Part shown: positions 11,159 through 46,633 of the stretch, piece by piece | Numbering within the stretch: position 1 is the first letter of the stretch | Layout: every line of letters begins with the position of its first letter | DNA from: Straminergon stramineum | Taxonomy: Eukaryota; Streptophyta; Bryopsida; Hypnales; Calliergonaceae | Length of the DNA stretch: 64,000 nt | Reading direction: 5' to 3' | Assembly: GCA_963920665.1 (NCBI GenBank) | Contig: OY987264.1 | Span: 24,098,906 to 24,162,905, forward strand | The notes under the pieces: model-generated | What the model was told of the DNA's origin: nothing | Seen by the model: only the letters and a program-made list of their open reading frames with translations | Database searches by the model: none | Translations under genes and position numbers: made by a program

Positions 11159-12885
11159 AGTATGTGCAATTGCGATATCGAAATCCGTAGTCGCGCGAGT
11201 GCGATACTACAGTCGACAACTAAAGTGAGTTCGTCAATGATAATGGTAGCAGCTAGGCTATGCTACCACGTAGGACGTCACTGTACATGTACTATAGTAT
11301 CGTTTGAAATAGTAAATGCCATTTATACAGTGCCAGTGTATTTGTGGTCCTCCTAATCAAAAGTTCAGTTTGAAAGGGGAAAGTAATGCCTCTATTAAGT
11401 TGCTAAACGGCTATCTACAAACCTGTAACTCCCCCTAAATGAGGACCAGAACTGTACACGAAGAAACGGTTGCAGCACATGCGCTTCATGTTCAGAATGT
11501 GCGTGTTGCGAACGTGCTGTTCAAGGAAGCAGTTGTCAATGTCTGGAATAGAAGTTGAATCCTCTCTATGCATGTCCTGCAAGGACTATTATTCATTTTA
11601 GGTGCATGTGGTCAAATTGAAAATGTGGAATACCTCGCAGTAATAGAGGGTATTGTAACACCTGTATATATAAGGAAATTTAGGTGTTGGCCCATGGCGG
11701 AGGCGGAGGATGGATTTAAGGACATTAGAGAAGTCAGACGTGAAGCACAGTATTTGAATCGCGTATTTCGAAAAAGCCTTCCAATACCGCAAACTTGTAC
11801 AGCACTGCCTGAATTTGAAGAAATTGTGAGAAAACTATGGAGAATTTCAAGTTATAGGGGAACTTGTATATGATTGTATTAAACATATTGTAAGTTTTGC
11901 CTCATGACCAGAAAGAAAAAGGGAACGTATGAAGGTAACTTTAAAGGTGTAGTTTGGGTGAAGTACTTGTCATTGTCATTGACACCTAAGAAGTGAATGC
12001 AAGCTGCCATGACATTTTCAGTGAGTTCAGTGAGTTCACATCTTAGTAAGATTAGTGAACGGCAGCCCTCATGAAAATCGTCTATGAAAATGGGATACCG
12101 ACAAAGGTCGACATCTATAATTATTGTTGCCCAGGCTATGGAACATGAAGTCCATGTTCGTGCAACAACATGTTTCGAAGAGAACAACAGTATGTATACG
12201 GAAAGTAGAAAGATAGCAAACCATAGGGGAGCCAATGGGAAAACCATGACTATAGCACGAACGATTTCTTTCTTGCGTGCTGTAATTTTGAGTCGTTGTG
12301 TAAAGCAAGAATACACATTGAGTACGACGTACTAGTTCCTCAAATTTTGCCTTCTAAAGGAATTTAACCATACATATTCTGTAGTAGACAATATAGGTAG
12401 ACTTTGTATAGGTGTCATGAAAGGTGTTCAAATACAATTGAAGGGGAAGTACTAATTAATGGTGGACCCCATTCAAGCATTATAAAATTTTGAAGCCATA
12501 TCTTAGCGGATAGATATTTCTTTGCTTGCTTCGTGCATGTTGTTTGCACGTGAGTGCTACTTTCTATGTTTTCTACAAGAAGTCGTACTTTTAGACATGA
12601 ACAATAAGTAGGAATTTGGCACAGCACATGAATGAACATGTGAACAGGGATCAAGCATGATTTTATTAATTACAGATGTTGGTCCCAAAAGTAGAGGAAA
12701 GCAATTGAAATTGAAACTAGCAGTATATCATTTGCTATGTATGTCTACGACAAAGCATGGAAAGACGTGTTGTTCTTCAATCTTCAACTCTTATGAACAA
12801 AGAGAAAGTGTTGAAGTCATTTTTTTCCTGCCAAATTGTGTTGGATAACACGTTCTTGTACTATGTGCACACAAAGGCAGCTGCA
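11159..12885. promoter_or_regulatory. Divergent intergenic region between the accessory gene and the TNP2 gene
   Basis: About 1.7 kb separates the two opposed start codons (11158 minus, 12886 plus) and presumably holds both promoters and untranslated exons. A plausible acceptor (cacacaaag) precedes the TNP2 start. An open plus-strand stretch at about 11690-11873 (GFKDIREVRREAQYLNRVF ... ALPEFEEIVRKL) slightly resembles the start of the later DUF4216 exon and could be an exon remnant. No clear TATA element was settled on. Confidence 0.3.
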
Positions 12886-15285: not shown

Positions 15286-16453
15286 AAACTACTTATTCGT
15301 CACGTGCTAGATCCGATGCACTGTGAGAAAAACCTCTGTGAGAACATGACAAAAACCATATGGGGAACGAAGGACACAATAGGCAGCAGACAAGACATGG
15401 AGGCTACGAGCATCCAACAAGACCTGTGGCTACAACCTACTGAAAATGCTCGCAAAGACTTTCACATTCCCGAAGCTCCATACATTTTGAACGCTGCTGA
15501 GAGGACGATAGTTATGCAAATTATAAAGTCATTGAAAACTCCCACCAATTATGTTAGTGCCATTCACAAATGCCTGGAAGAGGGAAAGCTACGGTACTTG
15601 AAGTCCCATGATTTTCATGTGCTCATGCACCAGGTTTGCACCTTCACAATTTCCACGCATACTTCACAGAGAACAGTGAAGGGAGTTACAATATTAGTGG
15701 AGTATGTACATGTAAAGATACAAAGAGAGGGATGGAAATGTTTGAGGTAATGATCGACCATGGGAAGATGTTAGTGCTCTTTCAAACAATAAAATTCTTC
15801 ATTCTTCAAAACATATTTAATTTCATAGTGATATGAGCTATGTAGCTATGAGTTCCCGTTTGTTTGATAATTGAAATTGACATATTGCATACACACGTGT
15901 AGGTACTTCCGTTGGCATTGCGAAATGCATTGAGTGAAGAGGTTCGACAGGCTGTGATGAAAGTTAGTCGAGTATTTCAAAGATTGTGTAGAAGAGAAAT
16001 AAAGATTTCAGAAAGAGACGCGGACATGATTGATGCTGCTGACGCGTTGTGCTTGTTGGAAAAAGTTTTCCCACCTACCTTTATGGACATAATGTTGCAC
16101 TTGATGATTCATCTTGTGGAAGAATTGTACATTTGTGGACCCGTGCATTGTCGATGGATGTATCCCATTGAGAGGTATATGAAAACTTTGAAAGAATATG
16201 TGAGAACCTATTCCCACCCTGAAGCTAGCATGGCTGAGGGTTATGCTATGTTGGAAACCTTAGGGTATTGCACGGAATACTTGCAACGTTTTCAAGGGAC
16301 TTGTCGAAGAGTGTGGGATGACAAAGAAGAGCAACGCATGAATGATGAAGTAATGCAAGGAAGTGGTTGGAGAAGACCAATGTCAGACCAATTTTTGCAG
16401 TGGGCACACAATTTTGTGTTGTCCAACTCAGGGGACCTAGAGGAATGGAGACA
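15286..16453 (+). pseudogene. TNP2 gene, DUF4218-encoding exons
   Basis: Exon 15286-15633 begins after acceptor TTTGTAG and continues TNP2 as KLLIRHVLDPMHCEKNLCEN, matching the family pattern L-R-H-x-L-D-x-M-H-x-E-K-N. It ends HVLMHQ before GTTTGC. Exon 15903-16453 follows acceptor GTGTAG and gives VLPLALRNAL, the usual start of DUF4218, then LMIHLVEELYICGPVHCRWMYPIERY and EASMAEGYAM. These are hallmark segments of plant CACTA DUF4218. The 269-bp intron contains stop codons in all frames. No premature stop was seen inside these two exons. Confidence 0.85.
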
Positions 16454-16790
16454 GTGAGTGGGGAAGTGTTGTCTAGTTGTTTGATTGAAGGAACCTAATT
16501 GTACTAGGAGATGTACAATTTCTGTTAGGATATATAGAAGGCTTGCAGAAGCATTACACCATGTAGGATTCAGTTGTTGCTTTTGCCTAACAATCTCATG
16601 TTTTCTATTTCGGTCTCACTGAAAGTGAATGTCCTCATAGACCACATACAAGGTGATGTGAAAATGTTTGGAACATACCTTTGTTTGAGGCATGTTAGAT
16701 TGATGTGGACATGATCCATTGTCTCCTGTCAATAGTCCTGTTGTTAATACCGTGCAATGTGTTTTGCACTGTGAAATAGACAATATATAG

Positions 16791-19422: not shown

Positions 19423-22400
19423 ATGGAAGCATTTGGGAGTCTAGTGGTGTTCAATGCCATTGGAAGTTCCGTGGTTGCAACAGAACAAAGGACCAGAGGG
19501 GAAAGATTGACACGTGTGGTACGAGCAAGACTTTTCCAAGAAGAAGACCATGTACCTAGCAATGAGGTATCGCACACTACGAATGGGATGGTGCAACTTT
19601 TGGGGAATGATGGAAATGTTGTGGGATTCGGTGTGGTGGATACAACCTTTGCATGTGGTGATGAACTTCATCAACTAAAGTTACGTCCATTTGAAGTTGC
19701 AGTTCGTGTTACACATGCCCTGAATGAAAGAGAATGGATTGGAGAGGTGGTGGGGAAGATGCTCATAGATTGCTTGGATAAGGTCATCAGGTGGCGTCGA
19801 TCTTCAATCCGTTGGGCACGCCCTTCGGAAGTGAGAACAACAGGCACTATTGGAAATGAAAGACAAAATTTTTCCTTTCCTCCTATTGCAGCACCGGAAT
19901 TTGATTTTCATGACGTGGAGGAGAGTCCTAGTGCTTCAAATGCGACCCTGCTAAGCCATGGTGAAAGAAGTACAGCTGAACGGAGTTCGCCTATGACACA
20001 AGAATCTGAAGCTAGTACTCATGATGTAACCGAATTACGAGGAATGCCTACACATGCATCGAAGAGGAGGTATTCAATGACAAATCGGAGGGCAAGGGTG
20101 AGAAGACCAAGAGAGCGAGGGGAGTCAACTGGTGAGAAAGTCACTTTTGAAAGTGTATTATGTGCGAAGGATAGAGGATCTTGTAAACACAATTGCTTAT
20201 GTGATGTTGACGCAAAATACATTTTGGATCAATGGTATATGGCATGGGGTCAGAAGTATGAAGCAAGGGCAACATGGATAATGCAGATGCTCAATGCCTT
20301 CTACACTCGCACTGAGGAGCACACAAGGGACAAGTATGTGACAAAATTAGATGGTAGAGTGGTTTGCAATGCTTGCTTCGCCGCAGCGTTGGGTTATTCT
20401 CAAAGGCGTTTTAAGCAGTTGAAGACATCGCATAATATATATGGTAGAGTGGCAGCTGTTCATGGAAACACATGTCAAGGGAGGGAAAGTGCGAAAATGT
20501 TAGTTGCTAGGGAAAGCCTTGATGTTTTTGTGAACAAAGCTGGATGTCAGCAACCCCATCGATCGATGCGAAGGAAGAAGGACAATACAGTGTTACCATT
20601 GATTTTGTTGCCTATGAATACAACCAAGTTGGATGTCTTTCGGTATGTGAACGAAGAAGTGAAGAAACTAGTGGATGGGACTGAATTGTCCATGAGCTCA
20701 TTTCGTCGTCTTTGGTGGAAGGAGTTCCCACATGTGCAGATTCCTCCATTCTCAAGATTCTCAAAGTGTTACCATTGTTGGGAGTATAAGTGTGGAATGG
20801 AATCCACCACAAATGTAGCAACGAAGGTGAAGATCAAAGAATTGTACATTGTGCACATTCAAATTCAAATGGAAGAGAGAAGAGATTATTGGTTGTTCAA
20901 GAGATCTGCGATGATCACTCCGGACATTTTCATGTGTTTGATTGTGGATGGTATGGATCAAAATACAACCATGATACCAAAGATGAGGCAATCTGTGAAG
21001 AATATTGAATCTCGATTTGTGAAGACTCATCTTTGTGGCATCCTAGTACATGGGATTGGACTATACGTGGATGTGTGGATAGATGCACACCACAAGCATG
21101 ATAGCAATCAAGTCATAACGTTAGTTGTGAATGTACTATGTGACGTGAAGCGCAGGAAAGGATCATTGCCACCGACATTGAGGATTCAAGCTGATTACAC
21201 CACAAGGGAGAACAAAAACATCTACATGTTTGGCATGTGTGCCGCACTAGTTGGGCTTGGTTTTTTCAAGGAAGTTCATCTTTGTTTTTTGATAGTGGGA
21301 CACACCCACAAGGACATTGATCAAAGATTCAGTGTAATTTCAAACGTCCTTAAGAGGAGAGACATAGATACACTGGAGGAGATGTTGCAGTTGGTGGAGA
21401 AAGGGACATCCTATACTAAGGCTTTTACAAGTGCTCGCAAGCTTGAACACGTTCGTGATTGGAAGGCATTTATCACACCTCATTTGCTACGGGGTGGGGA
21501 TCAATTGACAAGCATAACATTTCCACACCATATGAGGTTTTATGTGGAAAATGGGTTGGTCCGTGTGCAACACAAACATTTCAGTTCTGATGAGTGGGGC
21601 CCATCAAATGGACATTTGTGTTTGAACTCACTACCAAGTTTAACACAAAAACCAGACCTTGCCAAGGTGTTTGCAGCTGATCATAGAGAATTGAAAGCAT
21701 TAGACGAGTTCATTGCATATAAACAGAAGTTAATATTGAGAGGCGCGGACCGGATGAAGAACATGGAAGTTGTGGACAAAACAAATGCATTCAAGGATTA
21801 TCTTGAAGATTTTCCACAGCAAAATAGAAAAGGGGCCTGTGATTTACCGTTTTGGCCGAGCGATATATTGAACGAGAGCGAGGATGGCAATGTTGTTTCG
21901 AATGTGGAAGAAGAAGGTATAAATTCAAGTATCTCTGCAAATGCAGATGGAAACACAACAAGGACTATAGTTGTAGACTTGATAATGGCAACAATGCCTA
22001 ATCCAGAGAGGAGGGGGTATTTTGGACCGCGAAGGGATAGACCCCCACAAGAAGTATCCCAAAGAGTGACTGGAGGGAGGAATAGAGTCGGAAGTCATCA
22101 TACTGGAGTAGAAACAATACAAGATGCAAATGACGATCCTTTTCCTCCATTCAATCTAGAGAATGACATTGTCATAGGCCAGTTTGTGACACTAACTGTG
22201 CAGTTGAGGGAAATAAGAGGAGGAGTACCTTTCTACATAGGAAAGGTATTGGAATTTGGTCAGGGGAGGTGGGCCTCAAAGATGAAAGTCCTGTGGTATT
22301 GGCCTTCTTTGAGATCTGGAGTAGAAGAAGAAGCAGGTAGTAATAGAGTGAGGTACACAAATTGCATGGAATCCACATGGATACCGTCTGGGGAGAGGTT

Positions 22401-22623
22401 TGCTTGGATTGAAAAGGAAGCTGCTATATATTCATGGATGGATGTTCCTCATCGAGGTAGAATTGGTCACGTAGTAGTGTCCAATATTGTTGTGCACGGT
22501 GTACAAACGGAGGAGACAATGATCATTCCAATAGAGGCTAAACTGCATCTTGTGGAGTACATGGCAATGCAGATGGAGGACCTCGATAATGAACGTCTAC
22601 AAAATGATTTGAATATGTACTAG
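19423..22623 (+). CDS. Uninterrupted DUF7869-type protein, probable transposase-like (1066 aa)
   Basis: A single intron-free ORF ending in TAG. Residues about 1-130 are unassigned, and residues about 170-240 are Ser/Arg-rich and probably disordered. Next come a Cys-rich piece (CAKDRGSCKHNCLCDVDAK, about 247-265) and a helical region with VCNACFAAALGYSQ. The core (about 485-650) reads MCLIVDGMDQ, then LRIQADYTTRENKN, then FLIVGHTHKDIDQRFSVIS. From memory, these match the pattern of DUF7869 proteins in mosses, other early plants, oomycetes and animals (x-x-D-N-x-x-x-E-N-K-N and G-H-T-H-x-D-I-D-Q), which look like an RNase-H-fold transposase. Asn of the usual DN pair is Tyr here. The C-terminal part (VPFYIGKVLEFGQGRW then KMKVLWYWP) resembles a small SH3/BAH-like chromatin-reader segment. 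It is the only large ORF here without an internal stop, so it may be the youngest or a conserved component. Acid-triad assignment is inference. Confidence 0.75.
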   Translation: MEAFGSLVVFNAIGSSVVATEQRTRGERLTRVVRARLFQEEDHVPSNEVSHTTNGMVQLLGNDGNVVGFGVVDTTFACGDELHQLKLRPFEVAVRVTHALNEREWIGEVVGKMLIDCLDKVIRWRRSSIRWARPSEVRTTGTIGNERQNFSFPPIAAPEFDFHDVEESPSASNATLLSHGERSTAERSSPMTQESEASTHDVTELRGMPTHASKRRYSMTNRRARVRRPRERGESTGEKVTFESVLCAKDRGSCKHNCLCDVDAKYILDQWYMAWGQKYEARATWIMQMLNAFYTRTEEHTRDKYVTKLDGRVVCNACFAAALGYSQRRFKQLKTSHNIYGRVAAVHGNTCQGRESAKMLVARESLDVFVNKAGCQQPHRSMRRKKDNTVLPLILLPMNTTKLDVFRYVNEEVKKLVDGTELSMSSFRRLWWKEFPHVQIPPFSRFSKCYHCWEYKCGMESTTNVATKVKIKELYIVHIQIQMEERRDYWLFKRSAMITPDIFMCLIVDGMDQNTTMIPKMRQSVKNIESRFVKTHLCGILVHGIGLYVDVWIDAHHKHDSNQVITLVVNVLCDVKRRKGSLPPTLRIQADYTTRENKNIYMFGMCAALVGLGFFKEVHLCFLIVGHTHKDIDQRFSVISNVLKRRDIDTLEEMLQLVEKGTSYTKAFTSARKLEHVRDWKAFITPHLLRGGDQLTSITFPHHMRFYVENGLVRVQHKHFSSDEWGPSNGHLCLNSLPSLTQKPDLAKVFAADHRELKALDEFIAYKQKLILRGADRMKNMEVVDKTNAFKDYLEDFPQQNRKGACDLPFWPSDILNESEDGNVVSNVEEEGINSSISANADGNTTRTIVVDLIMATMPNPERRGYFGPRRDRPPQEVSQRVTGGRNRVGSHHTGVETIQDANDDPFPPFNLENDIVIGQFVTLTVQLREIRGGVPFYIGKVLEFGQGRWASKMKVLWYWPSLRSGVEEEAGSNRVRYTNCMESTWIPSGERFAWIEKEAAIYSWMDVPHRGRIGHVVVSNIVVHGVQTEETMIIPIEAKLHLVEYMAMQMEDLDNERLQNDLNMY

Positions 22624-31143: not shown

Positions 31144-31153
31144 GATATTAACA
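31144..31153 (+). repeat. Target-site duplication, left copy
   Basis: GATATTAACA directly precedes the left terminal repeat. The identical 10 bp directly follow the right terminal repeat at 46624-46633. A perfect 10-bp match at both borders is in the 8-11 bp range of Mutator-superfamily insertions. Confidence 0.9.
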
Positions 31154-31196
31154 CAGTGGTGCTATTCTATGAGCATGCGAGCATGAGCCTATGAGC
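31154..31196 (+). repeat. Left terminal inverted repeat
   Basis: Starts CAGTGGTGCTATTCTATGAG and continues with a run of TGAGC/CGAGC units. It pairs with 46581-46623 over 43 bp with about eight mismatches, mostly transitions. GAGC units continue beyond the paired part to about 31225 and could serve as transposase-binding subrepeats (inference). Confidence 0.9.
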
Positions 31197-31614
31197 GTTG
31201 AGCAGGGATTTTGTGAGCGTTGAGCATCAGAATTTGAAAAAGTAGTTAAAAACTCAATAAAAGTAGTAAAAAACATACAATTCGAAGATTTCGGGCAAAA
31301 TCTTCTATTTTGTGTAAATTATTGGAACTATTTATGTAGACCTATTACTGTGGACTTATGACTGTGGATATATACTATTTGTATTAGAATTGTTATTTGG
31401 AATTTTGCCTACATTACTAAAAGTATACATTGTGAAGACAAAAAACTCAATTGTTGTAAAAGATGAACATGATGGAAATAAGGTAGTATATAAAATATTC
31501 CAATGGGTTACAATATTTGACAAAAGAGAACTTCATACTTCTGTAACTACAAGTGTAATTGTAGTCTAAAGTCTCTTAGTCTCAGATATGAACTACTCAG
31601 AGATTCTTGGACTT

Positions 31615-34600
31615 CTAGGGATTCTGGGGCCCCTCCTGTGAAACGTTGATGATACCGGCCTTAAGGAGGAGGCACTTCACTTCATTGAAGCTGAAGCTTG
31701 GAGAATGTATGAACTTGTCTTCCATCGGGTTCATCTTGCAGAAGTAACGAAATAAGTAATAAAGATGTTTGCAATTAACATACTGCTGGTGTCCACCAAT
31801 TGCTGAGACAGCCATGTCCACAAAATCAAGACAAGTGCACTCTGAGTACATGCCAAGGGTGATTTGATAAACTTTATGCATGGGCTCCATTCCAGATTGA
31901 AGGGAGATTATAGCTCCAAGTCCAGGAAAGGGGAGCATGGTAACTCCTAGAATCATTCCTTTCACATTCCCTGCACTCTCCCACTTATTGCGATGCTCTG
32001 CAGTAGGAGCATTTGCAATACGTCTAATGGGCTTGCTCCTTCGAGTTGTCGGATAGGTGTCCGCATGCAACGGGCTAGGGTGATCATAAAGGATTGCCTC
32101 GAATATGTTTGACATCGTGAATAATCGTCGAGGTGACATAGGTGGTCGCTCTTGGAGTTGAAAGCCAGCCTCTTGCAAAAGAACTGTTTCTTGGCGACTT
32201 AGACTAGTGCCTGTCAGTACTGGCCAAAAGTCTGGTACTTGAGGCCAATCAATCACCCAAGCACGTTTAGATCCTTGAACACAACGGTGAATATCATCTG
32301 GGCAGAACCAAAAATCTGTCACAATTTCCTTATTCCCGCCATATTGTTTCTTTCTACCGCGATATGTTGGAGTAGGAGTACCTTTACATCCCTTTGCAAT
32401 TTTGGCAACGTAGCGGATGTTTGATCCTCGTTGTTGAGCGTGACATTTGCAACTAGACTTGTAAGATAGTCTCGCAATATGCCATTGCGAAGTGTCACAG
32501 TCACTCTCCAATGTAGTTGTGACATGTGGTACGTTCTCAGAGTTACGGAGCTTATCAAATGTATCTGAGGCCTCTACATGTGTGTGTGTAGATCTGGTCA
32601 TGACACGTGGTTGAGAGAAGTTGACTTTGTCTGGCCGATGGGAGTCACCATCCGATCCAATGGGAAGGTCAAGCTTGCGCTTACTACTCCCAAAAATCTC
32701 TTCGCCTTCCAAGTGGGGAATACAAGTTCCAACATCCGTTGCTCCGGGAAGGACATTCAATGCTTCTGCGATTTTCTTTGGGTCACCACTACGCCTAGTG
32801 CCTCTTAACTTCAGCTCTTCTTTAGATGGTCCTGACCTTGATGTTTTGCCGTTGAGGAATGATGGATAATTCATCATTTGCATAAAGGCTCGAATGCAGT
32901 CATCACAAGTGGCGGCAAACAAATCATTACCTCGATTACCCGACTACTGCAACCATTTGTTATGGATTGTTTCGGATAAGTTACATGATGGCATGTCTGC
33001 CATTTCCTCAACACTCAAATCCTGCATGAGAAAACTATAGTGAGTCTTACAATGTAATTTGTGAAAATTCTTTGACTGTTAGAAATTTGGGGCTTTGAAG
33101 AGCTCTGCAAGTGAAGATCTCATTAGTAGGCAGTTAAGGCACCTCTCGGCCCCGAGAGGTAACTAACCCCTTCACAAGTTTGATCCAAAAATTGCCCTAG
33201 GCTTTGAAGAGTGCTACATTTTGGGATCTCTTGAACATGTGGTCGAACCACCTCTTAGCTAGAGCCTAGAGAGGAAAATGAACCCTTCACAAATTTGATC
33301 CCTATATCTCTCTATAGTAATAATTTATGAATAGAAAAATACATTCGTAATAAAAAGTGAATAATAAGGATAAAAGCATTAAAACTTAAAGAACATGGTT
33401 GAACATACCATTTGCATAAAACCTCCCCATTGGCGATATCGGAAATGCCAAAAAGCAAGCCACAACTCCAATTCCCCCATAGCATCTTCTGAGGCCGCAC
33501 CAAATGATAACCACCAAGATCGAATGGCCAAGTATCGTGTCTCTGCTTCCTCCATAGTGTTTGAGTCCTTGTATTGCTTGCACAGACGAGTATGTTGGTG
33601 TTGCATATCCGGTTTAATGAGCTTCTGTGTATGTTGATGCAGTGAGGTACTCCAATGCAAAAGACACGTTCGCTCACGATTCAGCATCTCATCTTTGGTA
33701 TTTCCCGTACCGTATACAATGCGAACGGCATTCCAATTCGCTTGTGCACTATCTGCCATAAAGCCCTTAAAGTTTGGATTCTCCACACCATTGCGTCTCA
33801 TAACATCATTTAGTGATTTCCACATGATGCATTGGACTTCTATATCTTCAGATTGCATGTCACAAACTGCAATTGTCATGACCTTCCTGCATCCAGTGTC
33901 ATACACATGGCAAGCCATGGTGGTCCAATCTTTTACCCGTTTTACATGGTCAAACCTGAGCCACGCATTCTCCAGATCTCCTCCGGGCTGCATGCGCTTC
34001 ACCAAGTCCACTCCACTACCAGGACCTTCTACCAACATCTTGAACAAGTATACCTTTTCTTTACCTTGTCCACGAAAAACGCTATCATGAATGTATTCAA
34101 ACTTTAAGTTTCGCTTCATATTCATAATGCTACCTATGAGACCACCTTTTCCAGTGCTACGAAATGAAGAAATAGTATTACGTATGTTTGGGGAACTTAA
34201 TCTCTGAAACCTATCCATCACATCATCTAGCGACTTTCCTTGCAACATCTCCTTAGGGCCATCACCATTGTATATAAGGTGGTTGTCTAGAAATTGCTTA
34301 CTAGCTGCAAGGGCAATGGCAGAGTTAGTAGCAGTAGGGGTTTTAGAAACCTCGTTTGCAATGAGCTCAGTAATAGTGTCCAGTGACTCTCTACAAGTTC
34401 TAGAAGCAACAGGGTGCATGTGGTTTCCTAAATGAATGCATGCTCTGGTCATGACCATAGTATCACTAAAAACATAGTATACTCTAGCATCACAGACACT
34501 AATGCAATGGGGTGGAGTTTTGCATATCTTGCAAAGAAGAGTGGAATCTTTTGGAGGGGTTGTGCCAATATAGAATGGGATAGTAGTATTACCACACCAC

Positions 34601-35568
34601 TCGGTCTCATTGTGCTTTAACGATCGTTTGAGGTAGTTACAGTTAGAGTTGTTGCATACTAAATGACCAGCACAAGACGATTTCCTGAACTTAAGACCAT
34701 CTTGGTTGTTGATATTAGATGTCATGGTTCTACACTAGGCATGACCGTCATAACGTTTGTCCATGCCATGAAGGTTTCTAGCAGAAGATGTTGAAGATGA
34801 AGCACTTAGAAAAGGCAACTCAAATACCACGTTTCCATTGAAGTTTGCCGGAAGGTATTGTACTTCCTTATGTGCGATTGAATCATAATCTATCGCAGCA
34901 ACTTCATTCCTGGACCCAGGAATAGATGCTAGCTTACGTAGACAACCAACTACGCTAGTTGTGGATGTAATAGTAGGATAGGATGGTGGGCGAGAGTAAG
35001 TGGACCTCGCATGACTACTAGAGGGAGTGTTGTACTGAGTAGAAGATGGCTTCAAGACATCTTCTATGACTCTATGATGAACTACTGCTTGCAAACTTGG
35101 TTTGCTTGGGGACTCTCCTTCCGACTCACTAGATATATCTATGATAGGGTCTAGAACTTCCTGCTTCACATGGACACATGGAACATGAGAATTTGTATTA
35201 GTGATAGGTTCACGTCCTATAGAATTATGAATATCCTGGTAAGCAAGAGGCATGTCAACCGTGGAATAGTCTGACTGCCAAAGTAAGATGTCATTGGAGC
35301 CTCCCATCGCATGAGAGGACAAACCATAAGCTCTATAACGCCCTAGATGAAGGTGCCAAACATGACCGTCCTGAACTTCTAACTTCAACATATGGATAGA
35401 CTCCTTCAACCGCCCAGAATCAGACATGACCTCTTCTTCAACGTATATACTGGATTGAAGAAATCCAAATCTAACATGGAGAAGGCGTGAAGATAGTATA
35501 GCAAACCCTCCTTCTCCAAGAGGGATGACAAGAGGAATTTCATGGCCATCTACTCGAATGGAAGCCAT
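31615..35568 (-). pseudogene. Mutator-like (MULE) transposase with SWIM zinc finger, two in-frame TAG stops
   Basis: Two exons: 35568-33409 (donor GTATGT after GFMQM) and 33021-31615 (acceptor ATGCAG), phase 0, giving 1188 codon positions before the final stop. The N-terminal 277 residues are Ser/Pro-rich with a VKQE sumoylation-like site. Then comes a Cys-rich GCM/WRKY-like binding region (SSCAGHLVCNNSNCNYL; LLCKICKTPPHC; IHLGNHMHPV). The transposase core follows: CHVYDTGCRKVMTIAVCDMQ and GFMADSAQANWNAV, the latter like the second catalytic Asp segment of MULE transposases. Near the C terminus CTC...NCKH fits a SWIM finger (CxC-Xn-CxH). TAG at 34737-34735 splits the first exon between GHA and CRTMTSN. 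TAG at 32946-32944 splits NKWLQ and SGNRGNDLF, where Gln is plausible. Downstream frame and spacing stay intact. It could be active only if the stops are read through, which I doubt. Confidence 0.8.
33141..33160. repeat. Palindrome copy inside the transposase-gene intron
   Basis: ACCTCTCGGCCCCGAGAGGT: 9-bp arms around a CC centre, a variant of the CTCTCGGCGCCGAGAG motif found around the methyltransferase gene. It lies in the 387-bp intron (33408-33022) of the minus-strand gene, so the motif is spread over the whole element and not confined to one gene. Confidence 0.85.
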
Positions 35569-38099
35569 TCAGGTAGAAATCAAAGATGTAGTGGGAATCC
35601 AAAAAAATATGAAGCGAATACTTAGAACCTAAAGACTGAATGTCTGAAATGGTTCCATAATAGAAAATATTAAGGCTCGAAGATATCCCATCCAAGTCAT
35701 TGAGAAAGATAGGACCGTAGGATTGTCTTTAATTGTTAGGGTTGAGGGCATTGTCAGTAGCCTCAAACTTTTATCGAATCTATAACGGTCACCCTTATCA
35801 TTAAGCAAGTTGATTGCCAATAATGTGAATCATTAATCTCACCTAACTCATTAAAGGGATCAATTCAAAATTCAAAAATCTTATCATTAGTGGGAAGGTG
35901 AGGGGTTAAATTAGATTCTTGGCGGTTTCTAGATCAAATGCAATAACACCCTTTCAAAAGATCTAAACCATCTTTCCACTCTCTAATTTATGACCCAGGG
36001 TTAGCGCAATCATTTTGTCCAAAAATGTACCAATGGACATGATTTTTGGAATAGGGTTGCACGTACCTTGAAGATGGTTTATTGATGTAGTGAGCAATTA
36101 GTGTAATTCTCGTAGTCACAGTGAATAAAGTAGAGGTTAGATACAAGTGTAACGGTAGAAATAGAAGCACTATAAGAATAATATAATGAATCATACTAAG
36201 TCTTTTTTCCCTTAGAGCCAACTTGCAATATGATGCATTGCTCTCATGCTTGCGGATAAAGAGATAAGCGATGGTAGTTATGGGGTTGCAAAGTCGATTA
36301 GGAAGAGGAAGAAGAGGGGAAAATTTCTATTCTCCTCGCAGAAGGAGTTGTAGCACTCTCGGAAGAGAGCATTAGCTATTTCATTGGCAACAGATGCATC
36401 CTTACAAAGACGCCCTTGCAACTTGAAGGGAACCGAAGAGAATGAAGTGGAGGAAGTAGAGAAGCGCAATTTTCAAAAGGTGCAACTAACCGTGGACAAG
36501 TCATTCCTTCTTTGCAACTCACAAACATTGGTCTACTTTTCCGTAAGCAAATCAATTCACACATGACCTTTTACATTGAGTAATTGATTTTTGAATTTGG
36601 ATATAGCACATTGTGAGTAAGGCCTTTGGAATTCAAAATATTATATGCATTTGAAAACAAGTTTTCAACACCAAAATTCACTAGTAAGAGAGATATTATG
36701 ATTGAGGAAATTCTAGATTCACCTCTTCTTTTACACTAAAGGGATCATTCCATTCTTTCCAAACATAGAATCTGGTAGGCTATTGAACCAAGTCTATAAA
36801 TGAGATGCATTAGTATAATGCGTTAAATAAGTCTTCTCAATGTTGTAATAGTCAACATCTGAGGCCAATGATTTTGTATTTGCTTATGTACCAAATGTGC
36901 ACATTTCAGGCCAATAATGTAGTTGTTTAGAATGCATAAACAATAAAAAACTGAAGAGGTTGTTCCTTTGAGTAACAAATGCTTTGAAGATCCACAAAGT
37001 CTAATGTGAGTAGAATTAGACACCTTTTTTTTGGTTTTCAGGACAATAGTTATGTGGTCTTTCTTTCAAAATGGTTTTGAGTTTTATGTCTTCTTCATTT
37101 TGGAGGCATCCATTTCTGGAGCCCAATTTGAGTATGTAATTTATATATGCAATTTTTATATGTGCTTGCTTTACACGATGGACTAAATAAGATTTTTGAA
37201 ACATGGTGGCAACAGTGTATAGGGCCATGATTACAATATGGCATTTAGTCCAAATTTATCCTTATTTTTTAAAAAAGGATTGGATTTGCATATTATTGTT
37301 TCAGGGAATTGGAAATTTAAATGCATATAACATAACACTGCCACCAACCTCTTGTGGGAATAAAGCAAAAATTAAAACCAGAGCAGCCCCTTCTTGAGTT
37401 GTACTCTGGGCATCTAATCTCTAAGGTAGGAAATTCAAAAAGTGCATATGCTCTAGAATTGCCCACCTTTGTAAATTTGTAGTATTTGAACATGCTATTT
37501 TTTCATTTGATCAATGATGTACAAATAATGTACATTTATAGAGGTAGGCGATTTTAGAGCCCTAAGCCATTTCAATTTTAAAAATTCAAAACTAATTCTA
37601 CAAAACTCCAAAAAATATGAAACGACTTGGGTAAGATGCCAATTCAGTTTGCCTTTGAAGAAAAACTTACTGAAAAATATTTCAAGAAGCTTTACCTCCA
37701 CAAATATTGGTTTCACCTCTTTGATGAGTGCTTTACGGCCCTCCTACCTTATGGATCCGTCATGTCGTTTTCTTGTGTTGTTGTCATTGTTTCCACGGCC
37801 AGGGAACTTGTGGCAGGTTGAATTGTAATATTTACTCTAGTAATGAAATTCCTTTTCATTTGTGTCAAAAATTAAAGAAGAGAAAAAAACAAGGATAGAG
37901 AGTTCTACCTCCTTGACTAAGTAATTGAATTTCACATACTTTAAGAGAGACCCATGATTGAAGCCATTAACTAGGTACTTTGAAAATTATACAGTTTTTG
38001 TGAAGTGCGGTATTATATACTATCTTCAAGAAAGCACTGACAATGAACTCTTGTACAGTCAGGGAGAAAACTTGTTGTCTTGGCTCATTAAAGTCGTAA
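35569..38099. promoter_or_regulatory. Intergenic region between the element's two divergent genes
   Basis: About 2.5 kb with no convincing gene; it must include the transposase promoter and part of the methyltransferase promoter. A short open stretch at 36384-36566 (basic/acidic, 60 codons) lacks support and could be an exon remnant. No palindrome copy was seen here. Confidence 0.4.
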
Positions 38100-38289
38100 G
38101 CAACAAACCCTAGTAAAGGAGTTTTCGCCCAACGACTGCGTGGATTCCGGTGTTTTGCTGTTTCACTTGTAAGTAGAAGACAGACATTTCTTTAAACCCT
38201 AAGTACTTTGCTCTCACACATTCCCAACGCTTTCCAGTTCCTAGTTCGTGTGTTAGTAATCTGTGGTGGTTTTTCAGGGTGAGACAGAA
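38100..38289 (+). promoter_or_regulatory. Probable 5' leader of the ParB-methyltransferase gene: teloboxes and a leader intron
   Basis: Two telobox motifs, AAACCCTAG (38105-38113) and AAACCCTAA (38194-38202), are typical of plant promoters and leaders of housekeeping and dividing-cell genes. A good intron (GTAAGT at 38169, TTTTTCAG ending 38277) lies just before an ATG at 38290. A tatata-like box sits near 38010. Confidence 0.45.
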
Positions 38290-38430
38290 ATGGGGAGGAG
38301 AAATCCATCGAGGAGGCTGGTTGCAGCAGGACGGGAAAGTGACGAAGATGGTAGTGGCAGCGACGACAAAGCTGGTGGTGCTGAAAACTCCAGCGCCATT
38401 CTATTAAATCTAGTAGGCGTGGGCGGCACT
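38290..38430 (+). CDS. Candidate first coding exon of the ParB-methyltransferase gene
   Basis: ATG at 38290 opens 47 codons (MGRRNPSRRLVAAGRESDED...) and ends in phase 0 at a consensus GTAAGT donor. The start is Arg-rich (possible nuclear signal), then acidic/Gly-rich. An acceptor at 41495-41496 (ccaagag) would join it in frame to VNLTPEIEL of the main ORF, skipping its first six codons and leaving a ~3.07-kb intron. Alternatively the main protein starts at ATG 41479 and this is a separate or untranslated exon. No transcript evidence is available. Confidence 0.4.
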
Positions 38431-38699
38431 GTAAGTTCCTCAATGATCTCAGTCGTTTCTACTTAATTCCAGGACCAGTACTTATATGAGTCTTGATTTA
38501 ATCAACAGACTTACGGAAAGAGAGTTGAACAGCAGACAGGCTAGGGTTTGTTATCTAATATCATTTCTCACCTACTTTCACTCCTCATTTTCTGGGAATT
38601 GGACTTCACTACTGTTAGGTACGGTGTGATTACTGTAGAGGTCTCGCCATAAACGGAATATTGAATCTTCGAGAAGACAATCTCATAAGTTCAGAAGCA

Positions 38700-39690
38700 C
38701 AACTTCGTTTAGCATAGAAGCTTTGGTTCTGTCTACTGTTATTTTGGACCAAAGTTAGGGTTTCGATCGTCTTCCAAATCTGGCCTAAGATTTTATACTG
38801 GATTCTCCAATTTGATCAGGATCGGTTTGCTCCAGTCTTTCTCTCGGCGCCGAGAGGAGCTGGACTCCTGTTGGACATGTGTGAAATTCACGTTCAATTT
38901 CAAAAAAAACCCTCAGTGATTTCGTTGTAACAGCTCGCCCATGTCGATCCAGTTCTCCAATCTTCATCGACAGTTTGAATCAATGAGAATGGGATTGGTA
39001 CTAGTGACTAGAAATCAACAAGTCCAGGGTAGAAGCTTTGGTTTTGTCTATTGTTTTTTTGGACCAGATTTAGGGTTTCGGAATTTTGGCATTTCGATTG
39101 TCTTCCAAATCTAGCCTTAGATTCTTTGCTAGATTCTCGATTTAGATCAGGATGGATTCACTCCAGTCTTTCTCTCGGTGCCGAGAGGAGCTGGACTCCT
39201 ATTGGACATGTGTGAAATTCACGTTCAATTTCAAAAAAAAACCTCAGTGATTTCGTTGTAACAGCTCGCCCATGTCAATCCAGTTCTCCAATCTTCATCG
39301 ACAGTTTGAATCAATGAGAATGGGATTGGTACTAGTGACTGGAAATCAACAAGTCCAGGGTAGAAGCTTTGGTTTTGTCTACTGTTTTTTTGGACCAGAT
39401 TTAGGGTTTCGGAATTTTGGCATTTCGATTGTCTTCCAAATCTGGCCTTAGATTCTTTGCTGGATTCTCGATTTAGATCAAGATGGATTCACTCCAGTCT
39501 TTCTCTCGGCGCCAAGAGGAGCTGGACCCTAGTTGCAAATCCATGGAGTTTATGTTTAATATTTAAAAAAAAACTCAGTGATTCCGTTGGAACAGGTCGC
39601 CCCTGTCGATCCAATACTCTAGTCTTCATCAACAGTTTGATTCAGTCACAACGGGATTTGTACTATTGACTAGAAATCAAGTATCCAGGA
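38700..39690 (+). repeat. Three tandem units of 331 bp, each with one palindrome and a telobox-like motif
   Basis: The word aagtccaggg recurs at 39020 and 39351, and the palindromes at 38841, 39172 and 39503: all intervals are exactly 331 bp. Units share agaagctttgg, ttggaccagatttagggtttcgg (a reversed telobox), the palindrome, gagctgga and tgaaattcacgttcaatttc. Units 2 and 3 are nearly identical and unit 1 is more diverged. A fourth, decayed unit may follow to about 39850. Confidence 0.9.
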
Positions 39691-41415
39691 TAGCAACTTT
39701 AGTTCTGTCTCCTGTTATTTTTGACTAGAGTTTGGGTTTCATAATTTTGGCATATCAATCGTCTTCCAAATCTAGCGCTGGATTCTTTTCTGGATTCTCC
39801 AATTTGATCAGGATCGATTCCCGTGAGACAGGCCTAGAGAAGACGATCTCATAAGTTGAAAAGAAAACCTGCAATTAAGTTTCGATCTTGCATAGCTCGA
39901 AGCACCATTCCTCTCAGTGCCGAGGAATACCTGTAAGCAAGGCGTGTTAGATTCCAATTTCTAGCATATCAGTAGTCCTCCAGCAACTGGAACGTGCTTT
40001 TAGAATTTGATCAAACACGAGTCCCTCCTTCGTTCCTCTCGGCGCCGAGAGTAGCTCCATCCCTGCTTGAAATTTTGGTATTCATCATGAATGTTGAGAA
40101 AATTACTGATTCCCGTGAGACAAATCACTGAGGTCGACCCAGTTCGTCAATCTTTCATGAAAATTTAATTTCACAGACCGGTCATTAAGTGATTTGACGA
40201 CAACGATTTGAACTATTCTGTCTCATTTGACTATGGAGACTTCTTCTATTGGGAGATTCTTGTTTACAGATTTGGAAGGTGGACAACATGCAATAATTTG
40301 CAACGTTCCATTTGCCTTTCCTTTGACACTGAGCAGAATCCACCTCCTTGAATAGTAGGTTCAACTGCATAGAATCCATTAACCCTCAATTTGTAGAACT
40401 CAATTTGGCTTACGGAGAGTTACAAGTTCTGCACATTTTTAAAAATTTCATCACACAAGTTTCTCTCTTTCATGCTCTCGGCGCCGAGAGAAAGACTTAG
40501 GTGGGGCAGTATTGACTTCCATTGTACCCAGTCTTGATTTCCATTGTAGATGATTGAGTTCCTAGATTAGTTGTATCTCATTGGTCAAAGATTCATTTAA
40601 TCTCAAAAACATTGTTGACTCTAGTTTTAGCATTCTCATGTGGTATTTTCCTCATGTTTCTATTTAAAAAATTTGAATACAACGATAAACTTCCTTTGGG
40701 GTTTGATCATACTATTGTTCTCACTCCATTGCCCTCGGCACCGAATGGAACAAGTTCATGGGAGTGCCTTGATCAATTTCTTCAATTGTTTGCTTTAGAT
40801 CACATACTGAGAATTTGACATTAAGGATTATTTCCCAATTACTCAAAGAAAGTAGACACATTAGTCAGGTTTCATCACGTGTTTCTTGACTGCACTTCCT
40901 TCCTCTCAGCGCTGAGAGAGGAACTTTGCTTCTTTATTTTTAATTAAACGATGCTTCAAGTAGCCCCTAGTAATTTAAAAATATATAGTGTTCAAATGTT
41001 ATCTAGTTCAGTCATTATCATATCCCTCTGTTTTTGCTATTGGGGTCAAGAGAGGTTCCTGGCCTTCTTAGTTGGCATCTAGAGATCCTTGAGCTTAACA
41101 CCAATATAATAAAACATATAAGAATAGACAAATACATCCCTTCAGTTTGAAATGGATAGTAGAGGAGTTTTATTAGTTTAATCATGTCATTGTCCTTTCT
41201 CCTTTGCTCTCGGCGCCGAGAGGATGCCATGGCTGTTGTAGTTTTGATCTTGTCTTTCTAATATAGATCATTCAGTTTAAATATTTCACTTCTAGAATTG
41301 GTTTCTTATTTTTCAAATCATTATTTTGTATGTTACTCTCGACTTCTAGGATAGTGAGTTGAATAATTGTTTTGATCATTTTGGGTTTCAAATCTCTTCC
41401 TCTCAGCGTCGAGAG
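38841..41415. repeat. Array of ten 16-bp palindromes, CTCTCGGCGCCGAGAG and variants
   Basis: Perfect copies: 38841-38856, 40036-40051, 40475-40490, 41207-41222. A perfectly symmetric variant, CTCTCAGCGCTGAGAG, is at 40903-40918. One-base variants: 39172-39187 and 39503-39518. More decayed copies: 39911-39926, 40732-40747, 41400-41415. Most changes are C-to-T or G-to-A at one of the motif's three CpGs. Flanks outside the 331-bp units are unrelated, so the motif itself is the repeated item. It lies directly upstream of, or in the first intron of, the ParB-methyltransferase gene. As RNA it would fold into a 6-bp stem with a GCGC loop. The binding protein is unknown. Confidence 0.9.
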
Positions 41416-41478
41416 GAGCTACCTCCTCTTGGAATTCATGGTGTTTATTGATGTGTTTTATTCACAATTTTATTTGTC

Positions 41479-44400
41479 ATGCAAAATCTCCAAGAGGTTA
41501 ATCTTACTCCAGAGATCGAGTTGCCATGTGTAACGGTTGAATCTCAAACCTCTGATCAACCAGTCATTGGAACGACTGAAGACATGGAGGATGACTGTTC
41601 AAAGGAAGATGTTATTGAGCCACTTGATAACTTCACCTCTGAAGATGCCTTTCGAAAATCTCAGAAAGTAAATTCTGTGGCTTCAATCTCCAATCTACAT
41701 ATGAAACCACTTGCAGTCTCTCGACTACGAATTTCTTTGTGTCGCCTTGTTCAAATGCCTATGGTACGGCCAGCATTGCAATCTGACTTGACTAGGCTAG
41801 CTGAGGAATACGTACACGGATATAGAGATGGGTCATATGTTTTCTATGTTTCAATTACTAATGAACAGGGAGAGGAAGAGCAAGTTACTGATAGTGACAA
41901 AGCTGCATGGGGACCTCTTTGGAATGAAGAGAATGAAATTTTCAATGGAATTTTGAGTGTTACCCCGAAGTTGCAACATCTTCAAAACTCCAAGTTCTTT
42001 GTATGTGATGGGAACCATCGCCTTCTTGCTTGGTCATCTTACATCGCTCGCCATCATGAGCATGATCGAAGTTGGCATGTTTCCGTGGATTCTATCATAT
42101 TGGAAACGAAGGGGCGGATTGGAGTGGTCATGCATGTCATGCATGACATTAACAAGTATGTGTGCATAGACTCTTTTTTCTAATTTGTTTTTAAGTTTTC
42201 TCTTAAATGTCTTATCCCCTAACAAATTGACTATTCTATTGTGACAGATACACCGAGAATTCCTTCATCAAAACAAGTTTGGTGCACACCTTATATAGGG
42301 TCCGCAAATATGGAGGCATGTCTTTGGATAAGTTTTCCGAACATCTCAGTGATTCAGAGATGTCACAATGCACTCAAAATCTGAGGAAGTCTTGGTACAT
42401 CATGTCGTTGGAGGTGTTCATAGCATTTATTTATCGGGTAAGTTTCTCCACCATCTTGAATTTTTCATTTCTTTATTATGATTGTTGCCTTATCTTACTT
42501 TCTCTATCAATTTATTTTTGCAGTATGAGATAGCTGCTGCAGCAGATATTGCTGTGAGGCTATATAAGGAAGATACACCATTGGAAGATCAATCAGAAGA
42601 GGGTGTTCTAGCAGCCATGAGACTAGGCACGAAAGAGAAGACAACTCAATTGACTAAAAAATTGGGGAAACTCATAGCTATGGCTAATCCAAGTTTGGGA
42701 AAAGAGTGGCTTCATGAGGTAAGTAACTATATTTATCTTACTCTTGAATCCTTGGTTTGATGAATAGTATTTTTATTCTAATTTCTGAATTGCTTGTGTG
42801 AAGATTGAGCGCCATTGGAGTACAAATTCTATTCCCGAGATGACTCTCGACAAGTTGCAGATGATTGCTACTTGCAATGTCAAGGCGGAGCACAAAGTCA
42901 AGTGGTTGCGTTGGTGGAACTCCTCTGTGCAAACAAGAGAGGCACGTCACTTTCCTATGAAGCCCGTGGGAGAATCTGATCTGAAGGCCTTCTTAGTGAA
43001 GGCATGTTGATATTCAGGGGTGAGTGATTGGAAATGAAAATGAAGGTTCATGCTATTAATTTATTTTCATTATTTTGATCAATGATATTGTATTGACTTG
43101 GATGTCCATGCTGATTGTTTTCCTAAACATCATCTTTATTGTGCAGATAGAAGATGTTGCAACAGAAATGTTTGACACTATCGTTAAAAAGGATAACCTA
43201 GTGTTGGCCATGGACTCGCCTCAAGAGCCTGAGGTTTTGTCTGAATACATCGAAGGCTGGAGGATACAACTTTGGGATCATGCTTTCCTTTCCAATTTTA
43301 AGGGGCACGACGTCTTCAAGAAATCAGATTTATTTCTGAAATACAAGGGCTCAGACCTCATGGTTAAGCGAGTTCTGTTCAGGTACCAATTCATTTGAAG
43401 TGCTTATAGTCTAGTCTAAATTCTTTCCATTTTTTCCAATCTTAAGAATTTCTTTATCTCCTAACCCCATTTCCATTTTTGTAGGTACTTCAAGTATGAA
43501 CTCCTTCCAAAGGCAGCTATCACTAAGCGAGACCTTCCTCCTTTCCTCGGTACTTGGTTGGATGTGTCCACTGAACATTGCATGTTCTCTCCTTCACAGT
43601 TGAGGTGGTGGACAAGTGCACACTTGAAATCTGGAGTGTGGTACCTCAAGTGCCCTCCGGAATTTACACCTCTTTCCGAAGAGTGTTTGAAGTGCTCGAT
43701 TGACTCTCAAGACGTTGTTCTTGAGTATGATGAGTTTTCTGGATTGGATGAAGATGCTAGATTGAAGGCTGTGAAGAAGAGGGAAGAGGCAGATAAGTGA
43801 ATTGCCATCAAGAATTCTGATGCTGTGGAGAAGGCGCTTCAAAGAATCACAAAGAAGACTGCTAGAGTTGCTAAGAAAGAAAAAGAGAAGAGCTCAATGA
43901 AGACAGCAAAGCAACCAGTAGCCGGCTCATCTGCAGTGGATTAGGGATCTCAATTCCAGACATCTGTTTCTAGAGGCATGAAGCGAGGGGCAGAGCATTT
44001 CGCACTTACCCAAGCTGGCCTGCTCCATGGACCGGTTCTTCTTGATGTAGTTCATGACAATGATATCTCTATTGACGAGTTCATTTGCAACTCGTCTTTG
44101 GCGGTTGTGCTTGCTGATCCTTTACCTCCATTGTACCATGACATTCTGAATTTCATAGACAAGGTGTGATCCTTCACTTGTTTTCTTGAATTCATGTATT
44201 CACTTCCAAATGTTTAAAGATTTTTCAATTATTTCTGACATTTTCCTTTATTGCAGCACACGGTGGATAAGGATCGATTCTATCGAGGCATTCGTTCTGA
44301 CAAGCCTCATGTAGACCTTATCATCGCCGACATGCCTGAAGAACTACTTGTACTTGATGTGTCTAACCCTCCTACTGCCGTTCCAAAGTGGAATCAACGC

Positions 44401-45642
44401 CCTGATAAGTGGCTTGAGTTACTTTTTGAATTTGCAGATGGACATTTACAAGATGATGGGGCACTACTAATTGTCCATCCTTATAGGGCCCAAGCCAAAG
44501 TTGACATTCGTAGCTATGCTGTACCTTATGGATTTAAATTACGGAAGGAATGGTGGGGGATGAACCACTTGCATCTGACTTCACCTTTCGATCTATCTTC
44601 CACAGTAAGTTCATCTTCTATCAAAAGTTTTTGGATTTATAGGGATTTTATTATAAATCACAATGGTAATGTATTCACCTTGGAATGCTTTGTTTTGCAG
44701 ACATTGCATTTTGGAATTCAATTGTGGGTGAGAAACTTGCCAGAGGTTGGACCTTCGAAGTTCACATTTCAACTTTGCCCAAAGCTAAAGGCACTTGGTG
44801 TGGATGTTGCACATGACGACATTCTTCAAAATTTCACCATCTCGGAGACATTGTCTATGAACAAGGGTATTCCTTGGAGAGGGGCCCGTGAGAAGGACCC
44901 TCAATTCATACAGATGTTCATTGAAGCATTATCCATTCCAGGTGACGTGGTTGTGGACTGTACAGCTTCAACTGGTAAGTCCTAAACGTGCCTTTACATT
45001 TTAATGAACCATATAATCCTTTCAATTTTTTCCTCTTCTTTGTTTATCTTTTAATTTCAACTCAATGTACGTTTCCAGGTGCTTCCATTCACGCCTGTAG
45101 GGTCCTAGATAGGCACATTGTTGCCTTGGAGGAGGACAAGGACATCTTTGATGCGATGCTTGCCCCTCTCATTCGTCAATTTCAAGTTGTTCCGGCAACA
45201 CCTGCAACCAACACATTGCCCTCAGATGATCCGGATGAAGAAGATGTTGCAGTTCACCATGTTGTCAAAAAATCCAGATTCAGTAAGTAAGTCCTTGAAT
45301 TTCTTCTTTCTCTTCAGTTTCAAGCATTTGCATATCTCAAAACTTTTCTAATTCTACATTTGTTTTTGCAGCATGATATATACTAAGGCTAGACACCGGC
45401 CGTTCTATTCCTTGCCCGGTTTTTTCCCAAGTCCGGAGAAACACTACATACTACCCCCCTATGCTGAGGCGTTAGCTGTTGATTATACATCCCAAGGATA
45501 TATCCCTACACGAGATATGACTAGTACTTTGGATCCTAGGGTATTGCAATTTCTAGACATGGCAGCTCTAGAAGTAGATGAGAAGACATTGTGCACTAAT
45601 AGTAGTGCTCATTCTCAGTCAATGTCTTCTTCATCTACTTGA
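41479..45642 (+). pseudogene. ParB-like / beta-class DNA methyltransferase-like fusion gene, two in-frame stops
   Basis: Ten exons with matching phases: 41479-42155, 42248-42437, 42524-42718, 42804-43001, 43147-43382, 43485-44163, 44257-44604, 44701-44974, 45079-45286 and 45372-45642, giving about 1091 residues. Introns are 85-145 bp; the fourth starts GC. Residues about 84-185 are ParB/Srx-like (LVQMPMVRP ... FVCDGNHRLLAW, DGNHR at 177-181). Residues about 730-1000 have beta-class N4/N6 methyltransferase order: VDLIIADMPEE (motif IV place, about 750), WLELLFEFA, DDGALLIVHPY, then FIEALSIPGDVVVDCTASTG|AS (motif I place, about 925-935) and VALEEDKDIFDAMLAPL. Both signature motifs are altered (DMPE for DPPY; TASTG for FxGxG), so catalysis is doubtful. 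TGA 43798-43800 and TAG 43942-43944 interrupt a Lys-rich, coiled-coil-like linker whose frame continues. The domain order is known from phage and bacterial proteins. Confidence 0.8.
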
Positions 45643-46580
45643 TGTTTTTTTGAGCAAGATCATTCTTGTTTGATTCAATTTTCATCTTCAACTCCTCACT
45701 TTTTGAATTTCAATTGCATTATGAGGATAGTGAAGCTACTATTTCATTATCCCAAACTCCCTATTTCTAATGTAATGTTCAAGTTGTGATTTTGTATGTG
45801 GTATCTAGGTTGTTGTCTCCATCCTTTCATAATTGCTTTTTTCGAAATTACACTTTATTTAGTGCCCAAGACTTAGAAATTCAGATAGTTTTGTTGTCTT
45901 GAATTTATTTTGGATTGATGAATGTTCTCTTGCATTGTGAGACCTCTCAGGGCCGAGAGGAGAATCCAATCATCCAATGCTTGCATAATTATTTCCAAAT
46001 TGGCAAAGAAGTTTCTATTTTTTAAATTGTTATTGGAAAAAGCAAATCCCTTGGGTATCTTGGAAGCCAAAATCTGAAATTTTAAATGTTACACCCCTTA
46101 ACTAATACTATGTGGGATCCAATAATGTACTTCTTAGGCCTTTTGAATATTTTTTAAAATTACTAATACTATCACATTGAATTCAATGTGTTTACCAATT
46201 TTACCGCCATGTCTCTCAATATTATTTCTATTTTCTCTTTACCATTTTTTACTATTTTATACATTTCTATATTTCTTGTATCCTATTGGAAGATATTACT
46301 CTAATTCTAAATCCTAAATTACCATCCATATTTTTAATTATATAGAAACTAAGCCTAAAGTGTAGCTATATATATAAACTCAGATTTCTTAAATGTGTTC
46401 TATAAAGTATAAATGTCATGAAGTTTGTCAAAATTCAGACATAAAATGTCTATTAGGGATTACTCTCAACTTGGATTTACAAAAATGGAACATTATTAAA
46501 GATTTTCTTTTCATCTTTTGTATTCTCCAAAAAGCCACGATTATAGGACCAACCCTAAATTTCACCCCAAAAAAATGTAT
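45643..46580 (+). other. 3' flank inside the transposon, with one palindrome copy
   Basis: Non-coding. Palindrome variant CTCTCAGGGCCGAGAG at 45944-45959, about 300 bp past the stop codon, perhaps in the 3' untranslated region or just beyond. The remainder is AT-rich and runs to the right terminal repeat. Confidence 0.6.
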
Positions 46581-46623
46581 GCTCACAAGCTCACGCTCAC
46601 AAGCTCACAGAATAGCAACCCTG
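46581..46623 (-). repeat. Right terminal inverted repeat
   Basis: Read on the minus strand it starts CAGGGTTGCTATTCTGTGAG and continues in TGAGC units, pairing with the left terminal repeat. A run of A (46568-46575) lies just inside. Confidence 0.9.
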
Positions 46624-46633
46624 GATATTAACA
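46624..46633 (+). repeat. Target-site duplication, right copy
   Basis: GATATTAACA, identical to 31144-31153, immediately outside the right terminal repeat. Confidence 0.9.

Follow-up and report, generated by a model that had tools for sequence, protein, structure and literature searches.

VANC proteins bind to arrays of a short motif in the noncoding parts of their own VANDAL transposon family and induce the loss of methylation there, and these target arrays have expanded through tandem repeats, according to the available sections of the two accounts of this system (PMC5735166, PMC10398659). In the same sections, the VANC21 motif is given as the 9-mer YAGTATTAY in one orientation, and the terminal inverted repeats (TIRs) of VANDAL elements are described as commonly degenerate. 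Among Mutator-like elements (MULEs) at large, including MuDR of maize (mudrA/mudrB), the transposase carries a SWIM finger in many groups, the target-site duplication (TSD) spans 8-11 bp, and some groups have a second open reading frame (ORF), as reported in the available part of PMC6446971, which mentions the word methyltransferase zero times. The locus described here lies in a 64,000-nucleotide stretch of the moss Straminergon stramineum (contig OY987264.1, forward strand, positions 24,098,906 to 24,162,905; the whole stretch is hereafter the window) and is almost certainly a member of a two-gene Mutator-like DNA transposon family whose cargo gene, coding for a protein with a ParB-like and a methyltransferase-like region, is the element's own gene. 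The two genes of MuDR are convergent, whereas those of the window element are divergent. The element resembles the VANDALs, as far as the description of VANC goes, in being a MULE with a transposase and an additional element-specific gene, and in having an element-specific short motif that is enriched in noncoding DNA, piled up partly by tandem repeats and different between subfamilies. It differs from them in having a 16-bp dyad as its motif, recognisable TIRs and a ParB/methyltransferase-like cargo protein. Bacterial and phage fusions of this kind carry a ParB domain followed by a methyltransferase, and the cargo protein resembles them in that its ParB-like motif (DGNHRxxA) precedes a methyltransferase-like region in which motif IV comes before motif I. 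No class of transposon with a ParB-methyltransferase-type cargo was found in the literature searched.

The element spans positions 31154-46623 of the window (15,470 bp) and is bordered by a perfect TSD, GATATTAACA, read identically at 10 of 10 positions on both sides (left copy 31144-31153, right copy 46624-46633). Its TIRs, detected by inverted-repeat comparison and found again in the copies, occupy 31154-31196 on the plus strand, beginning with CAGTGGTGCTATTCT and containing GAGC-type sub-repeats, and 46581-46623 on the minus strand, finishing with AGAATAGCAACCCTG; the 43-nt arms are identical at 35 of 43 positions without gaps, and their local score of 54 is higher than any obtained with 2000 pairs of segments drawn at random from the window, which reached 49 at most. 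Between the TIRs lie two divergent multi-exon gene models, the transposase on the minus strand and the ParB-like/methyltransferase-like gene on the plus strand, together with a few further open frames of 100-150 amino acids. The inverted repeats, the perfect 10-bp duplication and the pair of divergent genes had been claimed by a sequence-only reading made without database searches, and all of them are borne out by this comparison; the element that it called complete is so in structure but not in coding capacity, since both frames have in-frame stops in the window copy.

Specifically, the transposase gene (31615-35568, minus strand) is modelled with one intron and 1188 codons, in exons 35568-33409 and 33021-31615, and is interrupted by TAG at 34735-34737 and 32944-32946 (codons 278 and 746). 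The cargo gene (41479-45642, plus strand) is modelled with 10 exons and 1091 codons, and its frame is broken by stops at codons 604 and 652. Both models were built by hand, with splice borders picked from the sequence and then checked against other copies. In the cargo gene, intron 4 is of the GC-AG type (window donor 43002-43003); among 11 copies, 10 have the GC donor and the remaining one has GT. The transposase combines a DDE-type core with a C-terminal SWIM-like CxC...CxH pattern that, read by eye, is intact in 9 of 11 copies; the Pfam SWIM profile matches neither the window piece nor the protein P0004. The closest solved match to the model of a relative is the ISCth4 transposase of the IS256/Mutator family (PDB 6xgx), which places the protein among the DDE transposases of the Mutator/IS256 group and supports the label of MULE given to it beforehand.

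Copy searches covered the window's own genome (326 Mb, 59 contigs) and returned the best-scoring candidates. The DNA of the cargo gene has at least 46 matches (best 40 of 288 candidates), and 10 further copies run collinear to the window element across both of its genes, with main blocks 88-97% identical; insertions occur in some of the fetched copies, and stretches of the intergenic array are missing or diverged. Nine elements, counting that of the window, were readable at both ends; all nine have TIRs (27-35 of 43 positions matching), both genes and the gene order in common, with sizes of 13.1-16.5 kb. A perfect TSD of 9-10 bp, within the range of MULEs, flanks six of the nine (window, C3a, C1a, C5a, C11a and C7a), imperfect ones flank C9a (9/10) and C6a (7/10), and in two other copies, C8a and C9b, the stretch read showed one end and not the other. 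The transposase DNA gave at least 41 matches (best 40 of 539 candidates), merged into 36 loci, and a divergent cargo gene lies beside 34 of these 36 listed loci, 33 of them within 15 kb by script and the last being C5:18274311 with C5:18281570. The other two transposase loci, C3:18413202 and C8:23027349, have no paired cargo gene among the matches listed, and five cargo loci are without a transposase among those listed (best 40 of 539). Hence the full-length copies with common TIRs, ~10-bp TSDs and both genes in the same order, for which the sequence-only reading had proposed a search, are present in the window's genome, and its assignment of the methylase gene to the element is upheld by this linkage and by the purifying selection between groups presented below. 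Stops shared between copies (transposase codon 639 in 5 of 11, codon 746 in 4 of 11) suggest either trans-mobilised defective lineages or recurrent deamination. Among more distant relatives, 59 transposase loci (best 59 of 1262) and 40 ParB-part loci (best 40 of 2169) form two divergently adjacent pairs, and a third pair lies within 25 kb in a non-divergent arrangement; such a small number of pairs could turn into evidence against the universality of the cargo. The ParB-like part has many additional, more diverged loci in the genome, again as the best 40 of 2169 candidates.

The window element and the copies collinear with it (subfamily 1) are accompanied by a second group of at least 14 loci, which match the window cargo gene at 65-68% DNA identity within its first 2.4 kb and which, relative to one of them, C4x, fall into several lineages (~95%, 78-81% and 69% identical). 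In the second-group loci that entered the linkage comparison, the two genes diverge as they do in the window element. C4x (L033+L032), the sole second-group element read over its full length, has a TSD, CTAAATGCCC, that matches at 10 of 10 positions, a similar TIR, a transposase with 75-79% amino acid identity to that of the window, and a cargo gene including the methyltransferase part; this part was covered in one second-group cargo gene and in one diverged copy (L031). Between the window and C4x, the proportions of nonsynonymous (pN) and synonymous (pS) differences are 0.228 and 0.742 for the cargo gene over 1050 codons, with synonymous sites saturated, and 0.118 and 0.503 for the transposase over 1180 codons (omega 0.154). 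As judged from its codons, the cargo gene is under strong purifying selection between the groups and is the element's own gene, a selected component of long standing; the transposase is under purifying selection as well. Within subfamily 1, pN/pS is 0.41 for shared against 0.70 for private changes in the transposase (p 0.001) and 0.44 against 0.62 in the cargo gene (Fisher p 0.047). We read this as both proteins having been kept functional while the family moved, with the copies decaying later. The cargo pS of 0.74 is far higher than the transposase pS of 0.50 in the same two elements (window versus L032/L033), a mismatch that suggests an exchange of modules between lineages.

The noncoding DNA of the element is marked by a 16-bp palindrome, CTCTCGGCGCCGAGAG. 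When up to 3 mismatches are allowed, the window contains 10 examples of it, against 0.02 expected, and every one of them is within the element. Eight of the 10 sites, exact or with up to 2 mismatches, form an array at 38841-41415 (starts at 38841, 39172, 39503, 40036, 40475, 40903, 41207 and 41400) in the 2.6 kb that immediately precede the cargo gene, one lies in the transposase intron (33143-33158, 1 mismatch), one lies past the cargo gene, before the right end of the element (45944-45959, 2 mismatches), and none is found in the TIRs. The first three sites of the array are held, one in each, by three 331-bp tandem repeat units detected by self-comparison (38761-39722, plus strand). The array, like the broken frames, is a feature beyond the sequence-only reading. 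Five of the 10 sites are perfect 16-bp dyads, including the doubly substituted and still symmetric CTCTCAGCGCTGAGAG, and sites whose flanks are no longer similar (21-35 of 80) retain 13-16 of the 16 core positions. The 11 subfamily-1 copies contain 4-12 palindromes each, and a search with the DNA of the array, in which all 19 of 19 candidates were scored, located 19 loci, every one of which adjoins a subfamily-1 cargo gene by coordinates. The 12-bp core CTCGGCGCCGAG, at up to 2 mismatches, recurs in 11 of 11 subfamily-1 elements and in 12 of 12 second-group intergenic regions, where 46 hits (1-6 in each region) compare with a mean of 0.1 in 30 shuffles, and it has zero occurrences in 48 kb of window flanks; the intergenic DNA of the window can be aligned with that of the 12 second-group regions in two short patches and not in the rest. 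The bases abutting the core, for cores with up to 1 mismatch, are T..A in 55 of 65 subfamily-1 sites and C..G in 20 of 21 second-group sites, and this group-specific change is present on both half-sites, so that the variant is itself symmetric. Throughout the 326 Mb, the exact CTCTCGGCGCCGAGAG occurs 32 times (reversed control 0) and the exact CCTCGGCGCCGAGG 16 times (control 0), with 16 of the former and 7 of the latter within 8 kb of listed cargo genes. The 15 CTCTCGGCGCCGAGAG and 9 CCTCGGCGCCGAGG exact sites that are away from any listed locus may represent additional subfamilies, arrays standing alone or sites of the host. Two second-group copies, L033 (8434-8702) and L036 (1490-1606), have few palindromes and carry between their genes a tandemly repeated 30-bp unit that contains a dyad of its own, GCCGATTNAGAAATCTGATCGGC; two others, L034 and L035, have 2-4 of these units.

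Sites that change and yet stay symmetric suggest recognition by a dimeric DNA-binding protein, and the cargo protein is a likelier reader of the palindromes than the transposase because most window sites stand immediately before the cargo gene and the TIRs are free of them. In the mechanism proposed here, the transposase moves the element, and the cargo protein would act as a dimer on the dyad-symmetric sites between the genes, through which it would control the expression or the chromatin state of its own element; the outcome would probably be a family-specific countering of host silencing, as VANC provides for VANDAL elements. Palindrome binding, a dimeric state and an anti-silencing outcome, in place of some other kind of self-regulation, are inferred attributes of the cargo protein, and this mechanism is put forward tentatively and with slightly less than even confidence. 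In the full form of the idea, a ParB-methyltransferase fusion of prokaryotic type would have become, in a plant lineage of Mutator-like transposons, a self-recognition factor that acts on 16-bp palindromes in the regulatory DNA of its own element and counters silencing by the host. The VANC strategy would then have arisen twice, independently and from different protein domains, and the protein would have evolved together with its sites from one subfamily to another; this form is possible but rather doubtful. The palindromes found away from the array, one within the intron of the transposase gene and one close to the right end, would also suit binding by the transposase or by a host factor, with the cargo protein doing other work, for instance aiding transposition as a second MULE protein, and several MULE groups do have second ORFs (available part of PMC6446971); such an arrangement is unlikely, however, as sites for the transposase are expected at the ends of the element, whereas those of the window crowd upstream of the cargo gene and spare the TIRs.

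The cargo protein, as the putative reader of the palindromes, consists of a ParB-like N-terminal region (~codons 60-225), a conserved middle region (226-600), a lysine-rich linker (600-690) and an N6/N4 methyltransferase-like region (~codons 725-975). Its N-terminal pattern LCRL...VRPAL...DGNHRLLAW resembles that of ParB-type domains. A search with the spliced window protein (1001 amino acids, last exon omitted; 8000 candidates scored) returned a lone homologue, M758_1G295400 of Ceratodon purpureus (P0001), which covers 92% of the query at 31% identity and which, used as a query, led to a second protein of the same moss, KC19_7G101700 (P0002). Both are annotated as ordinary hypothetical proteins and pass the PF01555 (N6_N4_Mtase) cutoff of 26.7 bits with 30.4 and 35 bits, respectively, and it is through them that the earlier label of methyltransferase is supported; the window cargo exons, scanned as separate pieces, gave no match to PF01555. 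A phage search yielded no match to the ParB-like part, and the methyltransferase part alone matches phage proteins. In beta-class methyltransferases, motif IV precedes motif I (motif names I, II and IV as commonly used), and the canonical motif IV is DPPY; the cargo motifs follow the order IV then I, and the protein therefore fits the beta class. Alternatively, the cargo protein could be a functional N6-adenine or N4-cytosine methyltransferase whose marks on the element's own DNA, placed at its termini or at the palindromes, set the timing of transposition or protect against silencing. Such an enzyme would agree with the moss homologues above the cutoff, with the purifying selection on the methyltransferase part (pN 0.257 and pS 0.686 between the window and C4x), and with the conservation of motif II (ALEED) in 11 of 11 copies and of a motif-I-like stretch (VVDCTASTGA.) in most. 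Conversely, the cargo motif IV departs from the catalytic form (D/N/S)PP(Y/F/W), as it reads DMPE or variants in the 11 subfamily-1 copies, with a fourth residue that is never aromatic, and DVPK in the second-group copy read (L032), whereas the Ceratodon proteins (DTPF and DQPY) are nearer to the canonical motif; a viral-contig methyltransferase has DIPY. DNA methylation activity of the cargo protein is doubtful because of this degenerate motif IV, and the explanation by a working enzyme is distinctly unlikely. Lastly, MULEs are prone to acquiring fragments of host genes (available part of PMC6446971), but a captured host gene riding as a passive passenger is very improbable for a cargo that is paired with nearly all listed transposase loci, is shared by two groups between which synonymous sites are saturated and pN is low, and adjoins a palindrome array that is likewise maintained.

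Several observations weigh against an element with its own cargo gene whose protein acts on the palindromes. All 11 subfamily-1 copies read carry broken frames, so that present activity is hypothetical, and no TSD is seen at C3b, one of the nine elements with both ends read. The contrast between shared and private changes in the cargo gene within subfamily 1 is borderline. Sixteen of the 32 exact CTCTCGGCGCCGAGAG sites fall outside the listed elements, one of them near a distant transposase relative, and in the second group C4x, C10x and C10y have 1-3 cores each, all or mostly degenerate, with the 30-bp repeat array in place of palindromes in C4x and C10x. As for the domains, the ParB-like label of the sequence-only reading holds as a putative homology by motif (a GxxR-like motif) but not by profile, since neither the window piece nor P0001 nor either of two copies matched a ParB family of Pfam at E values up to 10, and no ParB chain appeared in the PDB profile search. 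The degenerate catalytic motif counts here as well, and the methyltransferase domain of the fusion might serve something unrelated to the palindromes. Taken jointly, the element with its own gene and the mechanism proposed for it appear as likely to hold as to fail.

The window also contains other traces of mobile DNA outside the element. The remnants of a CACTA-type element lie at 12721-16457 on the plus strand, with a Transposase_21/Tnp2 piece (E 1.4e-24) and a DUF4218 piece (E 1.2e-32). An unbroken ORF of 1066 amino acids with a DUF7869 domain (E 1.7e-49), possibly another mobile-element gene, is located at 19423-22623 on the same strand.

If the proposed role of the cargo protein is true, sequence-specific self-recognition by DNA transposons would not be peculiar to the VANDALs of Arabidopsis, and a DNA-modification fusion of prokaryotic type would have been recruited for self-recognition in another plant lineage. 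With defined sites and a gene at hand, the way in which a transposon finds and un-silences its own kind would become directly testable.

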